Assembly: GCA_029268065.1 (NCBI GenBank)
Contig: JAJUHC010000016.1
Coordinates: 1-64,000, forward strand
DNA length: 64,000 nucleotides
Source: Clostridiales bacterium
GTDB taxonomy: Bacteria > Bacillota > Clostridia > Oscillospirales > Oscillospiraceae
Reading direction: 5' to 3'
Shown: piece by piece, positions 55,106 to 64,000 of the stretch
Layout: each line of letters begins with the position of its first letter
How positions within the stretch are numbered: position 1 is the stretch's first letter
The notes under the pieces: generated by a model
Database searches by the model: none
What the model was told of the DNA's origin: nothing
What the model saw: the letters and a program-made list of their open reading frames with translations, nothing else
Program-made: the position numbers and the translations under genes

Positions 55106-58100
55106 TTATATCAGCTTTGATTTTTGGAGCAGACGCTCGGCCATGACCGCCACCTCGGCGCGGGTGATATAATACTTCGGGGCAACGGTGCTTGCGGTCT
55201 TTCCGGTGACTACCCCCGCCTTGATGCAGGAGGCTATGCCGCTTTTCGCGTAATCCGAGACTGTGGCCGCGTCCGTATAAGCTCCGAGCAGGCCGCTTAC
55301 GTCGCCTTCGGACAAGTTGACATCGAGACCGGTTATTTTCATCGCTCTCGCAACCATGGTCATTGCCTGCTCACGGGTAATCAGGTCGTTCGGCCCGAAG
55401 GTCTTGTCGTCATACCCTTTTATTATGCCGTACGACGACGCCGTTTTAACATATTTGCAGTACCACGAGGAGGCGTCCACATCGCCGAAGCCGTTGGAAC
55501 CGATTCCGGGTTCAAGTCCGAGGGCCTTTACCATGATGGCCGCAAATTCGGCGCGCGTGATGCTGCGATCCGGGTCGTACTTATTGTCGCCTACTCCGTT
55601 TACGACCATTCTTGACCCCATATTGTTGATCGAGCTCTTAGCCCAATGATTTTCAGCGTCCGTGAATTCGACAGGGTTATAAATCACCGAATAAACGCTG
55701 TTCGTGAGGCTGTTGATCTTTGCGTAGTATTTCCCTCCGATTACGACGACCTCCGTCGGGACGTGCCGCACGCTTCCGTTCGGCTCGACAACGATTCCCG
55801 TTGTGATTTTGCTTGGGTCGACGCCGTCGGGTATCGCAACCATTCTTTCCACATAGGAGTTGAAGGCGCTGACATCAACGGTCTGACCGTTATAGGTGCA
55901 TCTTACCGTAAACTCAACCGCCGGCACCATGATTGCAAATCCCCCGTCATTTGCAGCGTTCTCGACGACTCTCACCGTCGATGCCGGAGGCTCGGATATT
56001 GATACATCCACGCTTATGCTGCCGAGGGATACGTTCTCCCCGAACTTTGCCGATACCGCGTCAATGTTTATTTCAGACGCAGGCAGCGTGTAGGTGGCGG
56101 AATCGGTTCTTATGACAAGAGTCGCTTCCTTGTTTTCCATATTCTTGACAGCCTGCCCGTCAAGCCTGCCGACAGCCGTGTCGGCACCCGTTGTTATCGG
56201 AACCGTGATTGTGGAGCCTCTGGCGGCATTGTTCAGTACATTTTCAATATCCCGCGAGGTCATAGTCACGGTCGTAGTAGTGCCGGACGCCGAGGTCGTT
56301 GTAGTTACTGTTCCCGCCGTCTGAGTCTGTCCCCCGACTTCGACCTTCGCCCCAGTATCGGCGGCGGGCGCCGACGGTCCGCTGGAGCTGCCGCCGGTCG
56401 AGTAGACTTCGACAAGATAGCTTGTGCCGTTCGTGAGTCCCGTTATTTCCGTGCCCGTCAGCGCGGCGGCATCGGACGCGCTTGCCGAAAGCGTCCCGTC
56501 AGCCTTGACGTAATAGACCGCTGAGCCGACGGTGACCTTGTACCTTGTTCCGCTCGTGAGTCCCGTTATTCTCCCGTTGCCCGCCGTTCCGAGGGAGCCT
56601 GAGGCGAGAACGACAGCCGTCGATATTTCTTCGACGAAGTATGTGGAGCCGTTGACCAGGCCGATAAGCTCGGTGCCTGTCAGGGGCGCGGAATAGGCGG
56701 GGTCAAAAGCAAGGTAGCCCGCCGCGGTTGAATATAAGGTGATTCCGCCCATGGTTACCTTATAGGCTTTACCCGAGGTAAGACCGCTTATCGTGCCGTT
56801 GCCGGCGGTGCCGAGGGAGCCGGACGCGAGGTATAAGCTCGCAGCGCTTCCCGTCCTGAGATAGATGTCGGCGGCAAGGTTTAAGAGGATTTCTCCGTTT
56901 ATCGTACTGGAAGCGTTTTGGAGCGAAGCGTCGGGGGTCCACGCGTCAAAGGAGCTTCCACTCATTTCCGAAGCAAGCAGCGCGCAGTTTGAGACGCTGG
57001 TGGAATTCATCTCCACCCCCCTGCCGCTTATGACCCTTATTAACGCCAGGCCGCTCCCGTGAATCGTTTTGCCGAATAACGACGCGCTGAGCGTGTTTGT
57101 GCCGGATACTTTCATTATGGAAACGGCAACTCCGTTGGCGCTTGTGAGCTTCGCTGCGCCAGACAGGGTCAGGCTGGAATTACCTAATGAGGACTGAATT
57201 GTAATTGCCGACATATTGCCGCTGCAGCTTACGCTGCCTCCGCTTATGTCTATGGTACCATCGCTCGAGTTAACAGCGGTTCCTTCAGAGCTGAGGCTGC
57301 CGCCCGTGATATTGATTGTTCCGGCGCCGACATTTGCGATAGCTCCGGCTTTGCCGCTTATGCTGCCGCCGGAAATGGTGACCTGTCCCGAGCCGGTTTT
57401 TGCCAGGGCGATACCGTTTGCCGCGTCCGCAGTTACGGTTCCGCCGCTGATAATCAGCGTTCCGCCGTCCATGCGAATAGTTTGGAAGGGAATGATTATA
57501 CTCGTGCTGCCGGATACCGTCAGATAGCCGGTATTTTGGATCCCGACGCCTCTCGAATCCGTTGAGGTGAAGGTCCCGCCGGAAACGGAAGAGTCTGAGG
57601 AGGCAGAAGCCGAGTTCATGATGCAGACGGTATCCTGCGGAGTCCCGTTTCCTGCCGAGAAGCTTCCTCCGGCGACGGTCATTTTTCCGGCGTTACTTAT
57701 GATTATGCCGTTCGACCCCTCGACATGGAAGGCGCCGCCGTTTATTGTCAGCGTCCCGGTGCCGGAGTCCGTATTTTGATTGTCGATGCAGATAAAGCCC
57801 GTACCGGAGCCCGTAAACGTGCCGTCGTTGATCGTCAAAACGGCTTCGCTTGTCAAGCACCTTGAATTTGCCCCAGAAACCGTAAACGTACCGCCGTTTA
57901 CAGTGAGGCTTTTTCCGTATTTTACATAAACCGCGCTGAAGGAGGTCGGGTTTTCTATCGTCGCGCTGATTTTAACAGCGTCAAAAATAACCGCCCCGCC
58001 AGTTACGAGCCCGACGCCGTCGTTAATCGCAGCATCGTCCAAAATCTCCACATTTCCCAAATAGGTCGCGGGGATAAGCGTATTCGCCGCGTTATTCGAG

Positions 58101-61100
58101 CTGAAGTTCCGTTCGCTTACCCGCAGGGGATTTGTTTCGCTTCCGAGCTGTATGGTGAGCTTTCCGTCAGCTCCGCTGTTTGTGCACGCCGCCAGAGCGG
58201 AGGCGAGGGTCGTATAGGCGCCGGCGCCGTCAACCTGGAAGCTGCTGGGGCCTCCGGTTACGGTATAGTCCGGCTGGACGGCTGCAAGCGTTATGCCCGC
58301 TCCCGCCGTGACGTTCCCGCCGCTCACGACTATTGTGCCGGATACGGACTGTCCGTTGCCTGCCGACGCGCCGATTACTGCGACGTAGCTGCCGTTCGGC
58401 ACCCCCGTGATCGTATAGCTGCCGTCCTGCGCCGTCGTTGCAGTATAAAGGACGTTTGAATACGCCGTGTCGGTCGAGGCGTAGAGCTTAACCGTGAGGC
58501 CTCCGACCGGAGCGCCCGTCGTCCCCGGCAAAACCGTGCCTGATATCGAGTATGTAGCACAAACCGCCGTCAGCGCCACCGCTTTTGAAACGCCGTTCAG
58601 CGACGCGGTCAGGGTAACGCCGCCTCCGCTTATGACCGCAGCGCTGCCGCCGCTCAGGCTGATAACGCTGGTATCGCTCGAAGTCCAATACACGGAGTTT
58701 GTCGTGCAGACCGTGAACGCGGAGCTTACGGAGGAAGCTTTTTCAGTTTGCGAAAGCCTTATCGGCGCAGCCGAGACGTAAGCGGCGTCTGTGGATTCAA
58801 TTCCGGTGAGGCGCGGGTAGAAGTCCGAAGAGAAGGTCCATTTTCCGCTGTCCCAGCCGCTGAATGCCGGGTTGCCGAGCATCTCGGTAGTGAGCTTTCC
58901 GACGGCGGCGCCGTCCGAATCGCTGCCGTTTATCCCGCCGGCCGCGCACATTTGCTTGTCGTAATAGCAGCCTGTTACCGTGCCGCTGCTGCCTCCCGCG
59001 ATGCCGCCTATGTTGGAGCCGCCGCTCACGCCACCTGCGCTGTAACATTCGGACAGGGTGATATTATTATCCATATTCCCCACTACGCCGCCGACTAGTC
59101 TCGTTCCGCTTACCTCACCCGCGTTATAGCAGGCGGATATGGAACCATCGACGAATGATCCAGCCACGCCGCCGACATATTTGACGCCGCTTATGCCGCC
59201 CGCGTTATAGCAATACCGCATCGTTCCGCCGCTGTAGCCCACCACGCCGCCGACGCTGTTGCTGCCCCCGCTGACTCTGCCCATATTGTAGCAGTACTGC
59301 ATTGTGCCCGACATACTGCCTGTTACGCCGCCGACGTATACGTCGGTCGAGCTGACGCTTCCTGTGTTGCGGCAGTTTTCCGCCGTACCGCCTGGGACGG
59401 CACCGATCACGCCGCCGATATTATAGCCGCCGCTAACGCTGCCGCTATTGTAGCAGTTTCTTATTATAGCGCCAGTTCTATTATCGCCCGCCACGCCGCC
59501 GACATAAGCTGTCCCGTTTATAACGCCGGTGTTGTAGCAGTTTTCGATTGTTCCTGAATTACTGCCGACCACAGCTGCTGTATAAAAGTCGCCCTCGATA
59601 TAGCTGTCTGTCACTCCGACATTTTTTACCGTGGCGCCTTCGATAAATCCAAACAGGCCCTGGAAACTGGAGCTGTTTTTGATATAGATTCCGCTTACCT
59701 TGTAACCGTCGCCGTCGAAGACGCCGGTAAATCTACTCGTACTGTTGCCGATCGGCGTCCAGCTGTTCGAGGGTGCGGAAGAGCCCCAGTTTTCGTAATC
59801 CGAGGCGTTTTGATTGAGCACGATATCGGCGCTCAGCTTGTAACAGGCCGAGCTTGCCGGCACGCCGCCGATGCTTGCGCCCGCGTTGACCTGCTGCGCC
59901 ATGTAGGCGAGGTCCGATCCCGACGCTATCAGGAAGGGGTCGGACGAGATTCCGGAGCCGGAAAGGCTCGCGCTGACGGATCCATCCCAGGCGGCCGGCG
60001 CTTCAGGTTGCAGAACGACGTCAGCGCCCGCAGTGACGTTCGCGCCGGCGACGGTGAATTGCCCCGACTCAGACAGCATGTAGCTGCCGGCATGCGCCGC
60101 AACTACGGCTAAGTATGTTCCGTTGGGCACCTCGGTGATTTCAAAGAAGCCCTTAACGTCCGTTGTGTCGGAATAGCTTGTGGGTGCCCCTGAGGAATAG
60201 AGCGTTACGGTGATTCCGCCGACAGAGGCGCCGGTCGTGTTCGCATACACCCTGCCGGAGACTACGAAGCTTGTGCATAACTGTACGTTATAGGTCGTGC
60301 CGTTTGTAAGCCCCGTAATCGCGGTTCCAATCAGCGGCGCGGCGTCTGCCGCGTTTGCAGTCAGCGTCCCGTCCGCCATGACGTAATAGGTGTCGGAGCC
60401 GGAGGTGACCTTGTATACCCTGCCGGAGTCGAGCCCCGTGACCGTCTTGTCTCCGGCTGTTCCGAGAGAGCCGGAAGCGAGAGATACTGCGGCGGTATAT
60501 TCCTCGACCAGGTAAGTTGTGCCGTTAAGAAGTCCCGTTATGGACGTACCGACAAGCGCTCCGCAAAGCGAGGCTTCGCTAGTAAGCGTACCGTCCGACT
60601 GTACATAATAAACATTCGAGCCTGAGGTGACCTTATAGGCTTTGCCCGAGGTCAGCCCGGTTATCGTGCAGTCGCCTGCCGTACCGAGGGATCCCGGCGC
60701 AAGGATCACCGTTTTGGGCCGGACTTTGAGATAAATGTCCGTCACCGACGCGTTGGCGCCGCTTGTCAGGTTTGAGATCGAATCCCCGTTCGTTGCGCTA
60801 ATAAGGCTTGCGAGAGCGGAGTCGCTCGCCCAGCCGACGAAATCCATGTTGCCGTCTATGCCGGATGCGGTTACAACGGCATCCGTGTAATCGGCGCTGC
60901 TTATCTTTTTCAGGGAGTCGCCCGGGTCGGTTTTTCCCGTTATGCTTATGGCCCCACCCGTGCTGTTGTGTATGGTCTTACCAAACAGGGAGAGACTTCC
61001 CGTGTGCGTATAGTTCGTGTTGAGCTTAGAAAACGATATCGTACGGGCCGATACCGAGCTGAGCACCGCGCTGCCGCTTACCGAGGCGGTAACGCTTGTG

Positions 61101-62575
61101 CCGTTCAAGGTATACGGCCAAATATACACGGCCGGTCCCGAGGTTCCCGTGCACTTCACTTCGCCTCCGCTGATGCTCAGTGTCCCGCTGAGTGTCCCGC
61201 TGAGCTGAGACAAAGCGCCGCTCTGCGCTCCGGAAATTGTTCCTCCGCTTATATTCAAGGTTCCGCCCTGATGATTTATGCCGTTCGCGGAGGAGGATGT
61301 AAATGTGCCGCTTTCGATGGTGGTCTTGCCTTCGCCGTGTTTGTATATGGAGTCGTTGGCCGCCGATATGCTGGCTTCCTTGATATACAGCGAACCGTTG
61401 CCGCTGGTTACGGTTCCGCTGTCGTATATTGCCCTATACCCGGACGTTATGCTCGTATGTGTTCCGGAAATCGAAACCGACGAGCCTCCCTCAATATATA
61501 CAGCATATGAATTAATGCCTGTTCCCGAGCATTCTATCGCAGTGTTATCCCCGATTGTGACTGTCGCTTCGGAAGCTCTTATCACATTGGCGGAGGCCGA
61601 GCCTGACGTGTTTGAAGCCTTCAGGCTGCAGCCTTCAAACGACACTGACGAGTTGGCGGCGGATACGGCGTAGCCGGTCGTGCCCGTCGCCTCTATCGTG
61701 CCGCCCGTAACGGTCAGGCTGGAGGACGAAATGTTGTTTACGGGCGTCTTGTTTGACGATATATAGGTTGGAACTAAGTGATCCGCTTCTGAAATCGTTA
61801 CCGTACCGCTATTATAAATCGCATAATAGCTGCCGCTGTTACTTATTGTGCCTCCAGATATGGCGGCGGTACACGAAGTTACGTTATATAGGCACACGGT
61901 GTAGGATCCGGATGAGCTTATGGTGCCCGCTGACATATTGAATATGTTATTATTATACACCACATACGAATAACTTCCGCTGGCTGAGATTGTGCTCCCG
62001 GAGCCCGAGACGTTAACCGTGCCGTCGTTAGCAATACCGTAGGATTTTTCCCCGAAAACCGTGAGGGCGGTGTTTCCCGTAATATTCAGGGCGCCGCCGT
62101 TTTTCACACTCAGCAATTTAAACAAATTGGAATTTCCGATAGCCGATGACATCTCTAAATCGAGGAAGGTCGCCGTCACACCAGCCGGGATTATAATGGC
62201 GGCACCGGCAGAAACAGCGGCATCATCCGACACCGTGATAGCGCCAATATAGGTTGCGCTCATATTCAGCGAATAGGTGTTGCTACCGTCAGTGACCTCG
62301 TAAATGCTCAGAGGCGTTCCCGCGCCGCCGAACTGGATCACCGTTGTTCCGTCTCCGTTGCCGTCCGAGCAGCCGGAAACAGCGTCCGAAAAGGTGAGGC
62401 CGCTCGTTGTTGCGGCGCTTGAGCAGTTGCTTAGTGCAAAGGCGCCGCCGTCGTTGGTTATTATAAAGTCCGCGGTCGGCGCAGGGTCCGCTTTCGCGGG
62501 AAGCGATATCCCCGTGAATAGCGAAATCATGATTGACAGGGTCAGGACAACGCTTAAGATTTTTTTAGCCTTCAT
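55106..62575 (-). CDS. Giant S-layer-anchored (SLH) mosaic surface protein
   Basis: 2489 residues from the ATG at 62575 (AAAGGAG upstream; the track adds ten codons). Order: signal peptide cut after PAKA (about 29); parallel beta-helix-type repeats rich in G/S/T (about 45-600); two SLGTAG repeats (about 622-770); a carboxypeptidase-regulatory-like beta-sandwich (GRVYANTTGASVGGITVTLY); eight GLUG-like repeats (about 990-1210); a Big-like domain; a second carboxypeptidase-like domain (GTVLPGTTGAPVGGLTV); a second beta-helix; two more SLGTAG repeats (about 1913-2058); a linker region; three SLH domains (about 2302-2489). The SLH domains should bind pyruvylated wall polymer. Function is probably adhesion or glycan binding. 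It follows a degenerate receiver gene by 30 bases. Confidence 0.9.
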   Translation of the reverse strand: MKAKKILSVVLTLSIMISLFTGISLPAKADPAPTADFIITNDGGAFALSNCSSAATTSGLTFSDAVSGCSDGNGDGTTVIQFGGAGTPLSIYEVTDGSNTYSLNMSATYIGAITVSDDAAVSAGAAIIIPAGVTATFLDLEMSSAIGNSNLFKLLSVKNGGALNITGNTALTVFGEKSYGIANDGTVNVSGSGSTISASGSYSYVVYNNNIFNMSAGTISSSGSYTVCLYNVTSCTAAISGGTISNSGSYYAIYNSGTVTISEADHLVPTYISSNKTPVNNISSSSLTVTGGTIEATGTTGYAVSAANSSVSFEGCSLKASNTSGSASANVIRASEATVTIGDNTAIECSGTGINSYAVYIEGGSSVSISGTHTSITSGYRAIYDSGTVTSGNGSLYIKEASISAANDSIYKHGEGKTTIESGTFTSSSANGINHQGGTLNISGGTISGAQSGALSQLSGTLSGTLSISGGEVKCTGTSGPAVYIWPYTLNGTSVTASVSGSAVLSSVSARTISFSKLNTNYTHTGSLSLFGKTIHNSTGGAISITGKTDPGDSLKKISSADYTDAVVTASGIDGNMDFVGWASDSALASLISATNGDSISNLTSGANASVTDIYLKVRPKTVILAPGSLGTAGDCTITGLTSGKAYKVTSGSNVYYVQSDGTLTSEASLCGALVGTSITGLLNGTTYLVEEYTAAVSLASGSLGTAGDKTVTGLDSGRVYKVTSGSDTYYVMADGTLTANAADAAPLIGTAITGLTNGTTYNVQLCTSFVVSGRVYANTTGASVGGITVTLYSSGAPTSYSDTTDVKGFFEITEVPNGTYLAVVAAHAGSYMLSESGQFTVAGANVTAGADVVLQPEAPAAWDGSVSASLSGSGISSDPFLIASGSDLAYMAQQVNAGASIGGVPASSACYKLSADIVLNQNASDYENWGSSAPSNSWTPIGNSTSRFTGVFDGDGYKVSGIYIKNSSSFQGLFGFIEGATVKNVGVTDSYIEGDFYTAAVVGSNSGTIENCYNTGVINGTAYVGGVAGDNRTGAIIRNCYNSGSVSGGYNIGGVIGAVPGGTAENCRNTGSVSSTDVYVGGVTGSMSGTMQYCYNMGRVSGGSNSVGGVVGYSGGTMRYCYNAGGISGVKYVGGVAGSFVDGSISACYNAGEVSGTRLVGGVVGNMDNNITLSECYSAGGVSGGSNIGGIAGGSSGTVTGCYYDKQMCAAGGINGSDSDGAAVGKLTTEMLGNPAFSGWDSGKWTFSSDFYPRLTGIESTDAAYVSAAPIRLSQTEKASSVSSAFTVCTTNSVYWTSSDTSVISLSGGSAAVISGGGVTLTASLNGVSKAVALTAVCATYSISGTVLPGTTGAPVGGLTVKLYASTDTAYSNVLYTATTAQDGSYTITGVPNGSYVAVIGASAGNGQSVSGTIVVSGGNVTAGAGITLAAVQPDYTVTGGPSSFQVDGAGAYTTLASALAACTNSGADGKLTIQLGSETNPLRVSERNFSSNNAANTLIPATYLGNVEILDDAAINDGVGLVTGGAVIFDAVKISATIENPTSFSAVYVKYGKSLTVNGGTFTVSGANSRCLTSEAVLTINDGTFTGSGTGFICIDNQNTDSGTGTLTINGGAFHVEGSNGIIISNAGKMTVAGGSFSAGNGTPQDTVCIMNSASASSDSSVSGGTFTSTDSRGVGIQNTGYLTVSGSTSIIIPFQTIRMDGGTLIISGGTVTADAANGIALAKTGSGQVTISGGSISGKAGAIANVGAGTINITGGSLSSEGTAVNSSDGTIDISGGSVSCSGNMSAITIQSSLGNSSLTLSGAAKLTSANGVAVSIMKVSGTNTLSASLFGKTIHGSGLALIRVISGRGVEMNSTSVSNCALLASEMSGSSFDAWTPDASLQNASSTINGEILLNLAADIYLRTGSAASLYLASGSLGTAGNGTISGLTSGKAYKVTMGGITLYSTAAGYLAFDPAYSAPLTGTELIGLVNGSTYFVEEISTAVVLASGSLGTAGNGRITGLTSGTRYKVTVGSAVYYVKADGTLSASASDAAALTGTEITGLTNGTSYLVEVYSTGGSSSGPSAPAADTGAKVEVGGQTQTAGTVTTTTSASGTTTTVTMTSRDIENVLNNAARGSTITVPITTGADTAVGRLDGQAVKNMENKEATLVIRTDSATYTLPASEINIDAVSAKFGENVSLGSISVDVSISEPPASTVRVVENAANDGGFAIMVPAVEFTVRCTYNGQTVDVSAFNSYVERMVAIPDGVDPSKITTGIVVEPNGSVRHVPTEVVVIGGKYYAKINSLTNSVYSVIYNPVEFTDAENHWAKSSINNMGSRMVVNGVGDNKYDPDRSITRAEFAAIMVKALGLEPGIGSNGFGDVDASSWYCKYVKTASSYGIIKGYDDKTFGPNDLITREQAMTMVARAMKITGLDVNLSEGDVSGLLGAYTDAATVSDYAKSGIASCIKAGVVTGKTASTVAPKYYITRAEVAVMAERLLQKSKLI
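56402..56838 (-). repeat. SLGTAG repeats 3 and 4 in the SLH gene
   Basis: Two tandem units of about 70 residues, each starting LASGSLGTAGNG and ending LTNGT.Y.VE-like. They pair with copies 1 and 2 some 1,150 residues earlier in the protein. Confidence 0.85.
58950..59610 (-). repeat. GLUG-like repeat block (eight units)
   Basis: Units of about 27 residues with the pattern NCYN.G.VSG...VGGV.G, a beta-helical GLUG repeat found in secreted adhesins. Aromatic/Cys core positions are kept in all eight units. Confidence 0.85.
60281..60710 (-). repeat. SLGTAG repeats 1 and 2 in the SLH gene
   Basis: Two tandem units of about 70 residues: PGSLGTAGDCTITGL and SGSLGTAGDKTVTGL starts, each followed by KVTSGS.. 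YYV..DGTL. The same unit recurs at 56402-56838. Confidence 0.85.
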
Positions 62576-62605
62576 CAAATAATTCTCCTTTCGTGTTCGC
62601 TGCAC

Positions 62606-62962
62606 TCATTTTTGACCTTTAATATAGTTGTTTATTTTTTCTTTTGTAAGCGGGTATGTAAGATACCCATAGGCCCCGACTTCATATGCGTCCACCGCGT
62701 AGCGCTCGTCCTCCGCAATAAACACAATCCTTATGTCCGTACTTATCTTCCGAACCGCTTCGGCGGCCTTAAAGCCAGGTATTCCGTCCCTCCCCAGCCT
62801 GATGAAGCAATAATCCGGCGGGGTGCTTCCCGTCTGCTCGAGGAACCCGACCCAATCGTCAAAGACGAGAATGCCGTCAACGCTTTTGCACTCGGAAAGC
62901 CGGCTGAGCATTTGAGTCCGTGCTTTTCCCCGCTCGTCCAGTACATATACCCTCAAATGCAT
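62606..62962 (-). CDS. Degenerate (pseudo-)receiver domain protein
   Basis: 118 residues from the ATG at 62962, with AGGGGGGGAGG upstream. It has the receiver fold pattern (VYVLDERG acid pair, VFIAEDERYAVDAYEVGAYGYL), but the phospho-Asp position in PDYCFIRL is Arg, the Thr/Ser after beta-4 is Ala (VFIAE) and the beta-5 Lys is Tyr (YPLT for KP). It therefore cannot be phosphorylated in the normal way. Its C-terminal half aligns well with the receiver of the SARP regulator encoded upstream ([17 protein letters not shown]), suggesting duplication. It lies 30 bases before the SLH giant, probably on one transcript. Confidence 0.8.
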   Translation of the reverse strand: MHLRVYVLDERGKARTQMLSRLSECKSVDGILVFDDWVGFLEQTGSTPPDYCFIRLGRDGIPGFKAAEAVRKISTDIRIVFIAEDERYAVDAYEVGAYGYLTYPLTKEKINNYIKGQK

Positions 62963-63006: not shown

Positions 63007-63015
63007 ATTATATCA
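63007..63015 (-). promoter_or_regulatory. Extended -10 promoter of the pseudo-receiver/SLH unit
   Basis: TGATATAAT on the minus strand (TG-n-TATAAT), about 45 bases before the pseudo-receiver ATG; no good -35 was seen. Confidence 0.5.
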
Positions 63016-63060
63016 TCCGGTTTTCTACAATTTTTCCACAAGAAAAAATTGAAACAGGAA

Positions 63061-63101
63061 AAAAGCCGAAATTCCGTCACGCATCGACGAAATTTCGGCT
63101 T
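63061..63101 (-). terminator. Terminator after the SARP regulator
   Basis: An 11-bp perfect stem (AAGCCGAAATT / AATTTCGGCTT) with an inner CGTC/GACG helix and a T-tract on the minus strand. Confidence 0.85.
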
Positions 63102-63143
63102 CAAACAAAAAATTCTATTAAAACTTCCAGCCGCAGCCGGCTT

Positions 63144-64000
63144 TTATTGCTCAATCAGCTCCTGAAGCTTTTTCTCAGGCTTTATTCCAAGCTCCTTCTC
63201 AAGGAAATCGGCGTAGGTCTTAAAATGCCTTATTGCGCTGCCCTTGTTTCCGCTTTCCCTGTAAAGTATGAGCAGAAGCTCGGAAATCTCCTCCAGATAA
63301 GGGTTCGCGTTGTAGGCCTTGAGCAAAACCCTCTCCGCTTTATCGTACAGCTTCTCCCCTATGTAGCTCTTTGAAAGCTCGAGGACGCACTGGTCGTAGA
63401 GCCTGGACAGTCTTTCGCTTTCAAAATCCGACCAGGGATAGAATTCTCCCTCCAGGTAGGAAGCCGTGTAAAGCTCCTCCATTTCCTCAAGCGCTTTGCT
63501 TCTGTTGCCGCCGCTTTTCTCAAAAAGCTCGCAAAATCGCTCCACGTCCCAGTCGACAGAGCCGCACTTCAGAGAATAGCTGCTGTTCATGCTAATCAGA
63601 TCGCCGTCGATTCCATACGCGTTAAGCGCTTTTCGGATGTAATAGCTGCTGTTGTAAAGCTGCTTGACCGCTTTCTCCGGATCGTCCTCCGGCCACAGCC
63701 TGTCCAAAAGCTCGTCCTTTGAAATACTCCGTCCGTGATTTTGAAGCAGATACGCGAAGAGCTCCCTGGCTTTCTCTATCCGCCATTTTATCGGCTCCTG
63801 CCCTTCCCAGCCCATCCGGAACCTTCCAAAGCACCGTATCTGGAGCTTTGAACCACGCCGCTCTCTTCTGAGAGGGGATTTTCCCCTCAAACGCTCGACA
63901 GTTTTCTCCAGGCGCTCTTCCGTAATCGGCTTCAGCAGATAATCCATGGCGTGAAGCTCGAATGCCTCGACCGCATACTGGTCGTAGGCCGTCACGAAAA
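63144..64000 (-). CDS. SARP-type response regulator (receiver-wHTH-BTAD), 5' end outside window
   Basis: The open frame runs to the window edge, so the start and most of the receiver are missing. What is visible: the receiver end [30 protein letters not shown]-like with the normal Thr and Lys, a winged-helix DNA-binding domain ([34 protein letters not shown]) and a bacterial transcriptional activator domain with TPR-like helices ([27 protein letters not shown]). It resembles the SARP/BTAD regulators of Clostridia. It is a good candidate to control the SLH locus next to it. Confidence 0.85.

Follow-up and report, generated by a model that had tools for sequence, protein, structure and literature searches.

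An SLH-anchored mosaic surface protein with a duplicated helix-SLGTAG block beside a BTAD two-component system in a Clostridiales bacterium

Multi-modular surface proteins with SLH anchors have been described in Bacillota, among them ChiW of Paenibacillus FPU-7, which is exported and joins SLH modules to helix-like and Ig-like parts (PMC5132251). Small beta domains of the Ig-like or fn3 type decorate the C-terminus of phage tail tubes and are also present in bacterial surface proteins (PMC9022992). The SARP/BTAD regulators of Streptomyces combine a BTAD domain with direct-repeat operators near the -10 box (PMC10972967); these operators consist of heptamers with 4-nt spacers, i.e. of 11-bp units (PMC5930380; PMC10972967). 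Pseudo-receivers that keep the receiver fold without the phospho-acceptor Asp and Lys are also known (PMC12632262). The locus described here lies in a stretch of 64,000 nucleotides (the window) of contig JAJUHC010000016.1 (C16) of a Clostridiales bacterium. No catalytic domain was found in its surface protein, which differs from ChiW-type proteins (PMC5132251) also in a duplicated helix-SLGTAG block and an adjoining, apparently dedicated regulator. The SLGTAG unit, a small domain repeated in the protein, resembles the tail tube decorations (PMC9022992) in size and beta structure, but profiles assign it to none of Big_1, Big_2, I-set and fn3, and the fold searches gave no match to Ig or fn3. 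Unlike the Streptomyces SARPs (PMC10972967), the regulator has a receiver domain, a 7TM kinase partner and a Bacillota host, and it adjoins surface protein genes and not antibiotic clusters. The aspartate-less receiver of the locus differs from the described pseudo-receivers (PMC12632262) in that it stands alone, between the BTAD regulator and the surface gene.

The reading that we favour, with a probability of about two in three, is that the locus encodes a dedicated, sensor-controlled and operator-switched surface scaffold, anchored by SLH domains and grown by block duplication and domain capture. The surface gene would give a long scaffold, probably for adhesion or sensory display, in which a helix-SLGTAG block was duplicated and GLUG and Ig-like parts were captured; the SLGTAG unit would be a compact beta domain, acting as spacer or decoration, paired after each helix block. 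The neighbouring receptor kinase and BTAD regulator would switch expression of the gene, the regulator binding an 11-bp direct repeat that lies close before the -10 box and so turning on a unit of receiver and surface protein. A tuning or damping role is possible for the aspartate-less receiver, which would be made along with the surface protein.

All features given below for the window lie on its minus strand. The open reading frame of the surface protein covers 55106-62605. The likely start is the ATG at 62575, preceded by an AAAGGAG ribosome site, which gives a protein of 2489 aa (55106..62575) with three SLH and two CarboxypepD_reg stretches in Pfam. The N-terminus, MKAKKILSVVLTLSIMISLFTGISLPAKA, was read by eye as a signal peptide ahead of residue 30 and passed a crude hydrophobicity test. 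Helix-like block 1 (residues 30-619, 60719..62488) is followed by SLGTAG units A (620-693, 60497..60718) and B (694-767, 60275..60496), both delimited by self-comparison of the protein, and by a first carboxypeptidase-regulatory-like domain (769-858, 60002..60271; PF13620, two stretches, 8e-10 for the protein as a whole). A GLUG block (870-1245, 58841..59968) has seven GGVxG steps spaced 26-28 residues apart; scanned alone, it matched PF07581 at 7e-10 and 39 bits, against a cut-off of 20.5. It is followed by an Ig-like domain of Big type (1262-1337, 58565..58792), which is weak (aBig_2, E 0.057, below the cut-off), and by the second carboxypeptidase-regulatory-like domain (1338-1430, 58286..58564), seen by Pfam and by its match to the first. 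Helix-like block 2 (1431-1910, 56846..58285), recognised by alignment to block 1, then precedes SLGTAG units C (1911-1984, 56624..56845) and D (1985-2060, 56396..56623), again from self-comparison. The C-terminal part consists of a conserved linker domain without a Pfam family (2066-2300, 55676..56380), typical of the region ahead of this type of SLH triplet, and of three SLH domains (55109..55669; Pfam 5e-34, 116 bits against a cut-off of 20.8). By its domains and export signal the protein would be an SLH-anchored surface protein, predicted to bind wall polymer. The helix-like blocks had no match in Pfam or by PDB sequence search and showed a weak periodicity of 15 and 22-23 residues; the label beta-helix is a suggestion from this pattern. 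PDB sequence search gave no convincing match for the linker domain either, and the linker-SLH module was present in 29 of the 300 phylum genomes searched.

The SLGTAG unit measures about 74 aa. Neither Pfam nor NCBIfam has a curated family that takes it, and PDB sequence search gave no convincing match. The original prediction had known no name for it and had allowed that an existing family might take it; none in these collections did. The closest approach was fibronectin type III (PF00041), for which the whole protein scored 24.7 bits against a cut-off of 25 and a single unit 14.5. AlphaFold models were all beta, with pLDDT 93 for the pair and pLDDT 96.9 and pTM 0.84 for the single unit. Foldseek, run with pair and single unit on the PDB and with the single unit also on BFVD, gave nothing below E 0.02 and no convincing fold match. 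For the single unit, no PDB match had E <0.5 and no fn3 was among the top hits, although Foldseek can miss small beta domains.

The unit is not unique to the window protein. Wider searches found it in one more protein of the window genome, at about 13 loci of named genomes (including Tepidibacillus, Anaerotignum, Clostridium, Brevibacillus, Alkaliphilus and Peribacillus) and in prophages. In the named loci its partners were SLH, CWB2, SbsC-type or Big_2 domains, where Pfam detected any. Within the genus (5 genomes) and family (201 sampled) it was seen in this genome only, and in the phylum sample in 5 of 399 genomes; the unit has therefore probably moved horizontally. On viral contigs a tail tube protein (phrog_6686, E 7e-106) has the unit as its C-terminal domain, and 16 of 21 units matched this tail tube family in PHROGs, at the C-terminal end of its profile. 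L112 and L128, two further proteins from phage surroundings, likewise carry it at the C-terminus. Over 65-184 the core of the prophage tail tube shows homology to the tail tube of Dp-1, and the match ends short of the SLGTAG unit. This placement C-terminal to a tail tube core, as in decoration domains, holds for the prophage relatives and does not concern the window protein. Cultured phages and plasmids gave no tblastn match to the unit.

These results also bear on another possibility, that the SLGTAG units are the active part of the protein, as ligand-binding (e.g. glycan-binding) domains, and the remainder a stalk. Conservation is strong across all units, the modelled fold is confident and compact, and the unit's C-terminal place in tail tube proteins is one where Ig-like domains may help adsorption. 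However, conservation falls mainly on G, L, Y, V and N of turns and core, no conserved acidic cluster was found among the units, and no fold match to a binding domain was obtained. A binding role is doubtful on this evidence, and the role of spacer or decoration is preferred. In one exported protein (L024, genome G346), SLGTAG-like units flank a serine-hydrolase (beta-lactamase-like) domain on both sides.

A second protein family has a beta-helix-like part, one or two SLGTAG units and then an SLH or membrane anchor. At all nine readable loci it follows a tape-measure gene, either at once or after one small gene; PHROGs scoring covered three of these tape-measure genes, and the remainder were judged by sequence likeness. 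Six of these loci are bacterial (L028, L029, L031, L033, L036, L134) and three are viral contigs (L110, L111, L113). The second SLGTAG protein of the window genome, on contig C12, belongs to this family by 44-75% identity and by tree, and the contig begins at this copy. In a tree of 39 units, the C12 units grouped with those of phage elements; the window units were not placed. The six bacterial loci (L134 in genome G435) and a locus on contig C5 of the window genome (L133) are compact phage-like elements with a sigma factor (phrog_351), a tape-measure gene (phrog_1068), often a recombinase/excisionase-like gene and usually an SLGTAG surface protein, which the C5 element lacks. No capsid genes were seen in the flanks, and the elements might be satellites providing a tape measure.

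Upstream of the surface gene lies a set of regulatory genes. A 7TMR-DISM histidine kinase (C16:64251-66128, beyond the window; Pfam 7TMR-DISM_7TM, His_kinase, HATPase_c) is next to a BTAD response regulator (63144..64000, continuing to C16:64235 beyond the window; Pfam Response_reg, Trans_reg_C, BTAD), which is of the BTAD/SARP type by 39.4 bits vs 22.1 for BTAD and 29.4 vs 26.2 for Trans_reg_C. Then come an intrinsic terminator-like hairpin of 18 pairs (63062..63102), the longest in a region where the number of such sites was near chance, and a two-gene unit of receiver and surface protein. The short stand-alone receiver (62606..62962; Pfam Response_reg 5e-7) starts at the ATG after GGGGGGAGG and stops 30 bp upstream of the surface gene; alignment to intact receivers showed that it is aspartate-less (D to R, K to Y).

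A paralogous cassette was found on contig C6 of the same genome (kinase 49%, regulator 62% and receiver 49% identity), leading into a GLUG-linker-SLH protein, and genome G412 has the same four genes (47, 52 and 39% for kinase, regulator and receiver). Clostridium ragsdalei combines kinase, BTAD regulator and an SLGTAG protein with a CWB2 anchor. When the linker-SLH module was used as query and the upstream region of twenty hits was inspected, G412 had the full cassette, G390 a decayed version and G223 a kinase-regulator-SLH arrangement; most hits were without a cassette. In the decayed cassette (L138, 8290-13297) the kinase and the BTAD regulator survive as fragments, the receiver looks intact and the GLUG-linker-SLH gene is frameshifted. 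Three of the four receiver copies are aspartate-less, with D to R in the window, C6 and G412, and the G390 copy keeps Asp and Lys. Only ordinary receivers were found when the aspartate-less form was sought in 149 relatives and 15 unit-bearing genomes. BTAD regulators of two genomes of the same genus (G001, G002) had neither surface partner nor repeat. In another genome of the same family (G007, L090, 7768-15840), a kinase and BTAD regulator are found with an 11-bp repeat and TATAAT, a large exported adhesin-like protein in two frames and a sortase-like gene.

The kinase-regulator pair could instead serve other genes, its proximity to the surface gene being historical. The terminator-like hairpin between regulator and surface unit fits such a view, as does the scarcity of the pair beside linker-SLH proteins elsewhere. 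Against it, both paralogs and members of other families retain the cassette, and the operator-like repeat recurs exactly at the cassette. We regard this alternative as improbable, and control of the surface gene by its neighbours as the better reading.

The putative promoter (63007..63041) reads TTGTGGAAAAA TTGTAGAAAAC, 7 bp and TATAAT, so that an 11-bp direct repeat stands 7 bp before the -10 box. The C6 cassette has TTTGGTTAAAT TTTGGTGAAAT, 8 bp and TATAAT; three GGAGAAT repeats stand in G412, and in G223 the TTTTTGTTTAT pair is perfect. Period-11 repeats before TATAAT were found in 5/5 cassette gaps, with p 0.001-0.014 each in dinucleotide shuffles, and no other period was consistent. The comparison was widened to 31 distinct BTAD genes with downstream sequence, a set gathered partly via BTAD and SLH queries and not random, for which period 11 was no selection criterion. 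Exact TATAAT with a period-11 repeat was found in 9 of the 31 and in 0 of 799 control ORFs; with one mismatch in TATAAT the counts were 14/31 and 3/799, and periods 9, 10, 12 and 13 occurred in the BTAD gaps in 0-1 genes. The commonest gap between repeat and TATAAT in the set was 8 bp, a distance to the -10 box that is usual for SARPs as well. In most hits the next gene, or the one after a short receiver, has an N-terminus that looks export-like by a crude test. It is very improbable that the repeats are AT-rich, low-complexity matches that fell beside -10 boxes by chance: two sites are T-rich (G223, C. ragsdalei), but several are not (GGGAGAAT, ATGTCAGAATG, TTTATTGGACA), the score was rarely reached by shuffles or the control gaps, and period 11 alone stands out. 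The repeats fit the published 11-bp SARP units, and the regulator is predicted, from sequence, to bind them. Five other matches to a loose operator pattern in the window genome were rejected as targets; they precede ordinary genes and their repeats are mostly weak. At L030 (2600-2660), where no BTAD gene adjoins, a perfect TTTTGTAAGAG x2 stands 8 bp from TATAAT; the genes that follow encode an acetyltransferase-like protein, a protein of tail-collar type and a surface protein with SLGTAG.

A broader joint reading is put forward tentatively: SLGTAG may be a new small beta fold swapped among phage tails, the cargo of phage elements and host wall proteins, and BTAD two-component systems across Bacillota may be dedicated surface-protein switches working through an 11-bp direct-repeat operator. 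If the exchange is true, host and virus show the same domain on their surfaces, and SLGTAG offers a unit to search with for an unassigned domain connecting phage tails to bacterial surface proteins. The operator is a concrete prediction for Bacillota BTAD response regulators, for whose targets, as for BTAD with SLH, surface proteins or Firmicutes, a literature search found nothing relevant. The operator prediction and the SLGTAG link can each be tested with one purified protein.

The original prediction had described two related half-architectures joined together, with the unit four times in two distant tandem pairs. Both the relationship and the pairs (620-767 and 1911-2060) were recovered by self-comparison. 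Residues 61-766 aligned with 1456-2057 in one collinear match spanning helix block and SLGTAG pair (33%, E 1e-60), and the carboxypeptidase-like domains matched separately (766-858 vs 1338-1436, 48%, E 2e-15). Identity was 60% between the SLGTAG pairs and 26% between the helix blocks (E 5e-22, z ~19 over shuffles). The four units share 51-66% of their residues and 57-71% of their DNA, and the longest exact repeat within the gene is 17 bp, which indicates an old duplication and, even for a draft assembly of 50 contigs and 89% completeness, dismisses an assembly artefact or recent copy-number variant. Copying of whole modules did not hold up: only the helix-SLGTAG block is a collinear duplicate, the carboxypeptidase-like domain lies C-terminal to block 1 but N-terminal to block 2, and the GLUG/Ig part occurs once, so that the halves are related and not simple copies. 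The layout could have arisen by tandem duplication, the GLUG/Ig part being inserted later next to the middle domain. The original prediction had also missed the linker domain and the upstream cassette. Giant SLH proteins are ordinary in this genome, since 63 SLH hits were spread over >20 ORFs, several of them >1400 aa.
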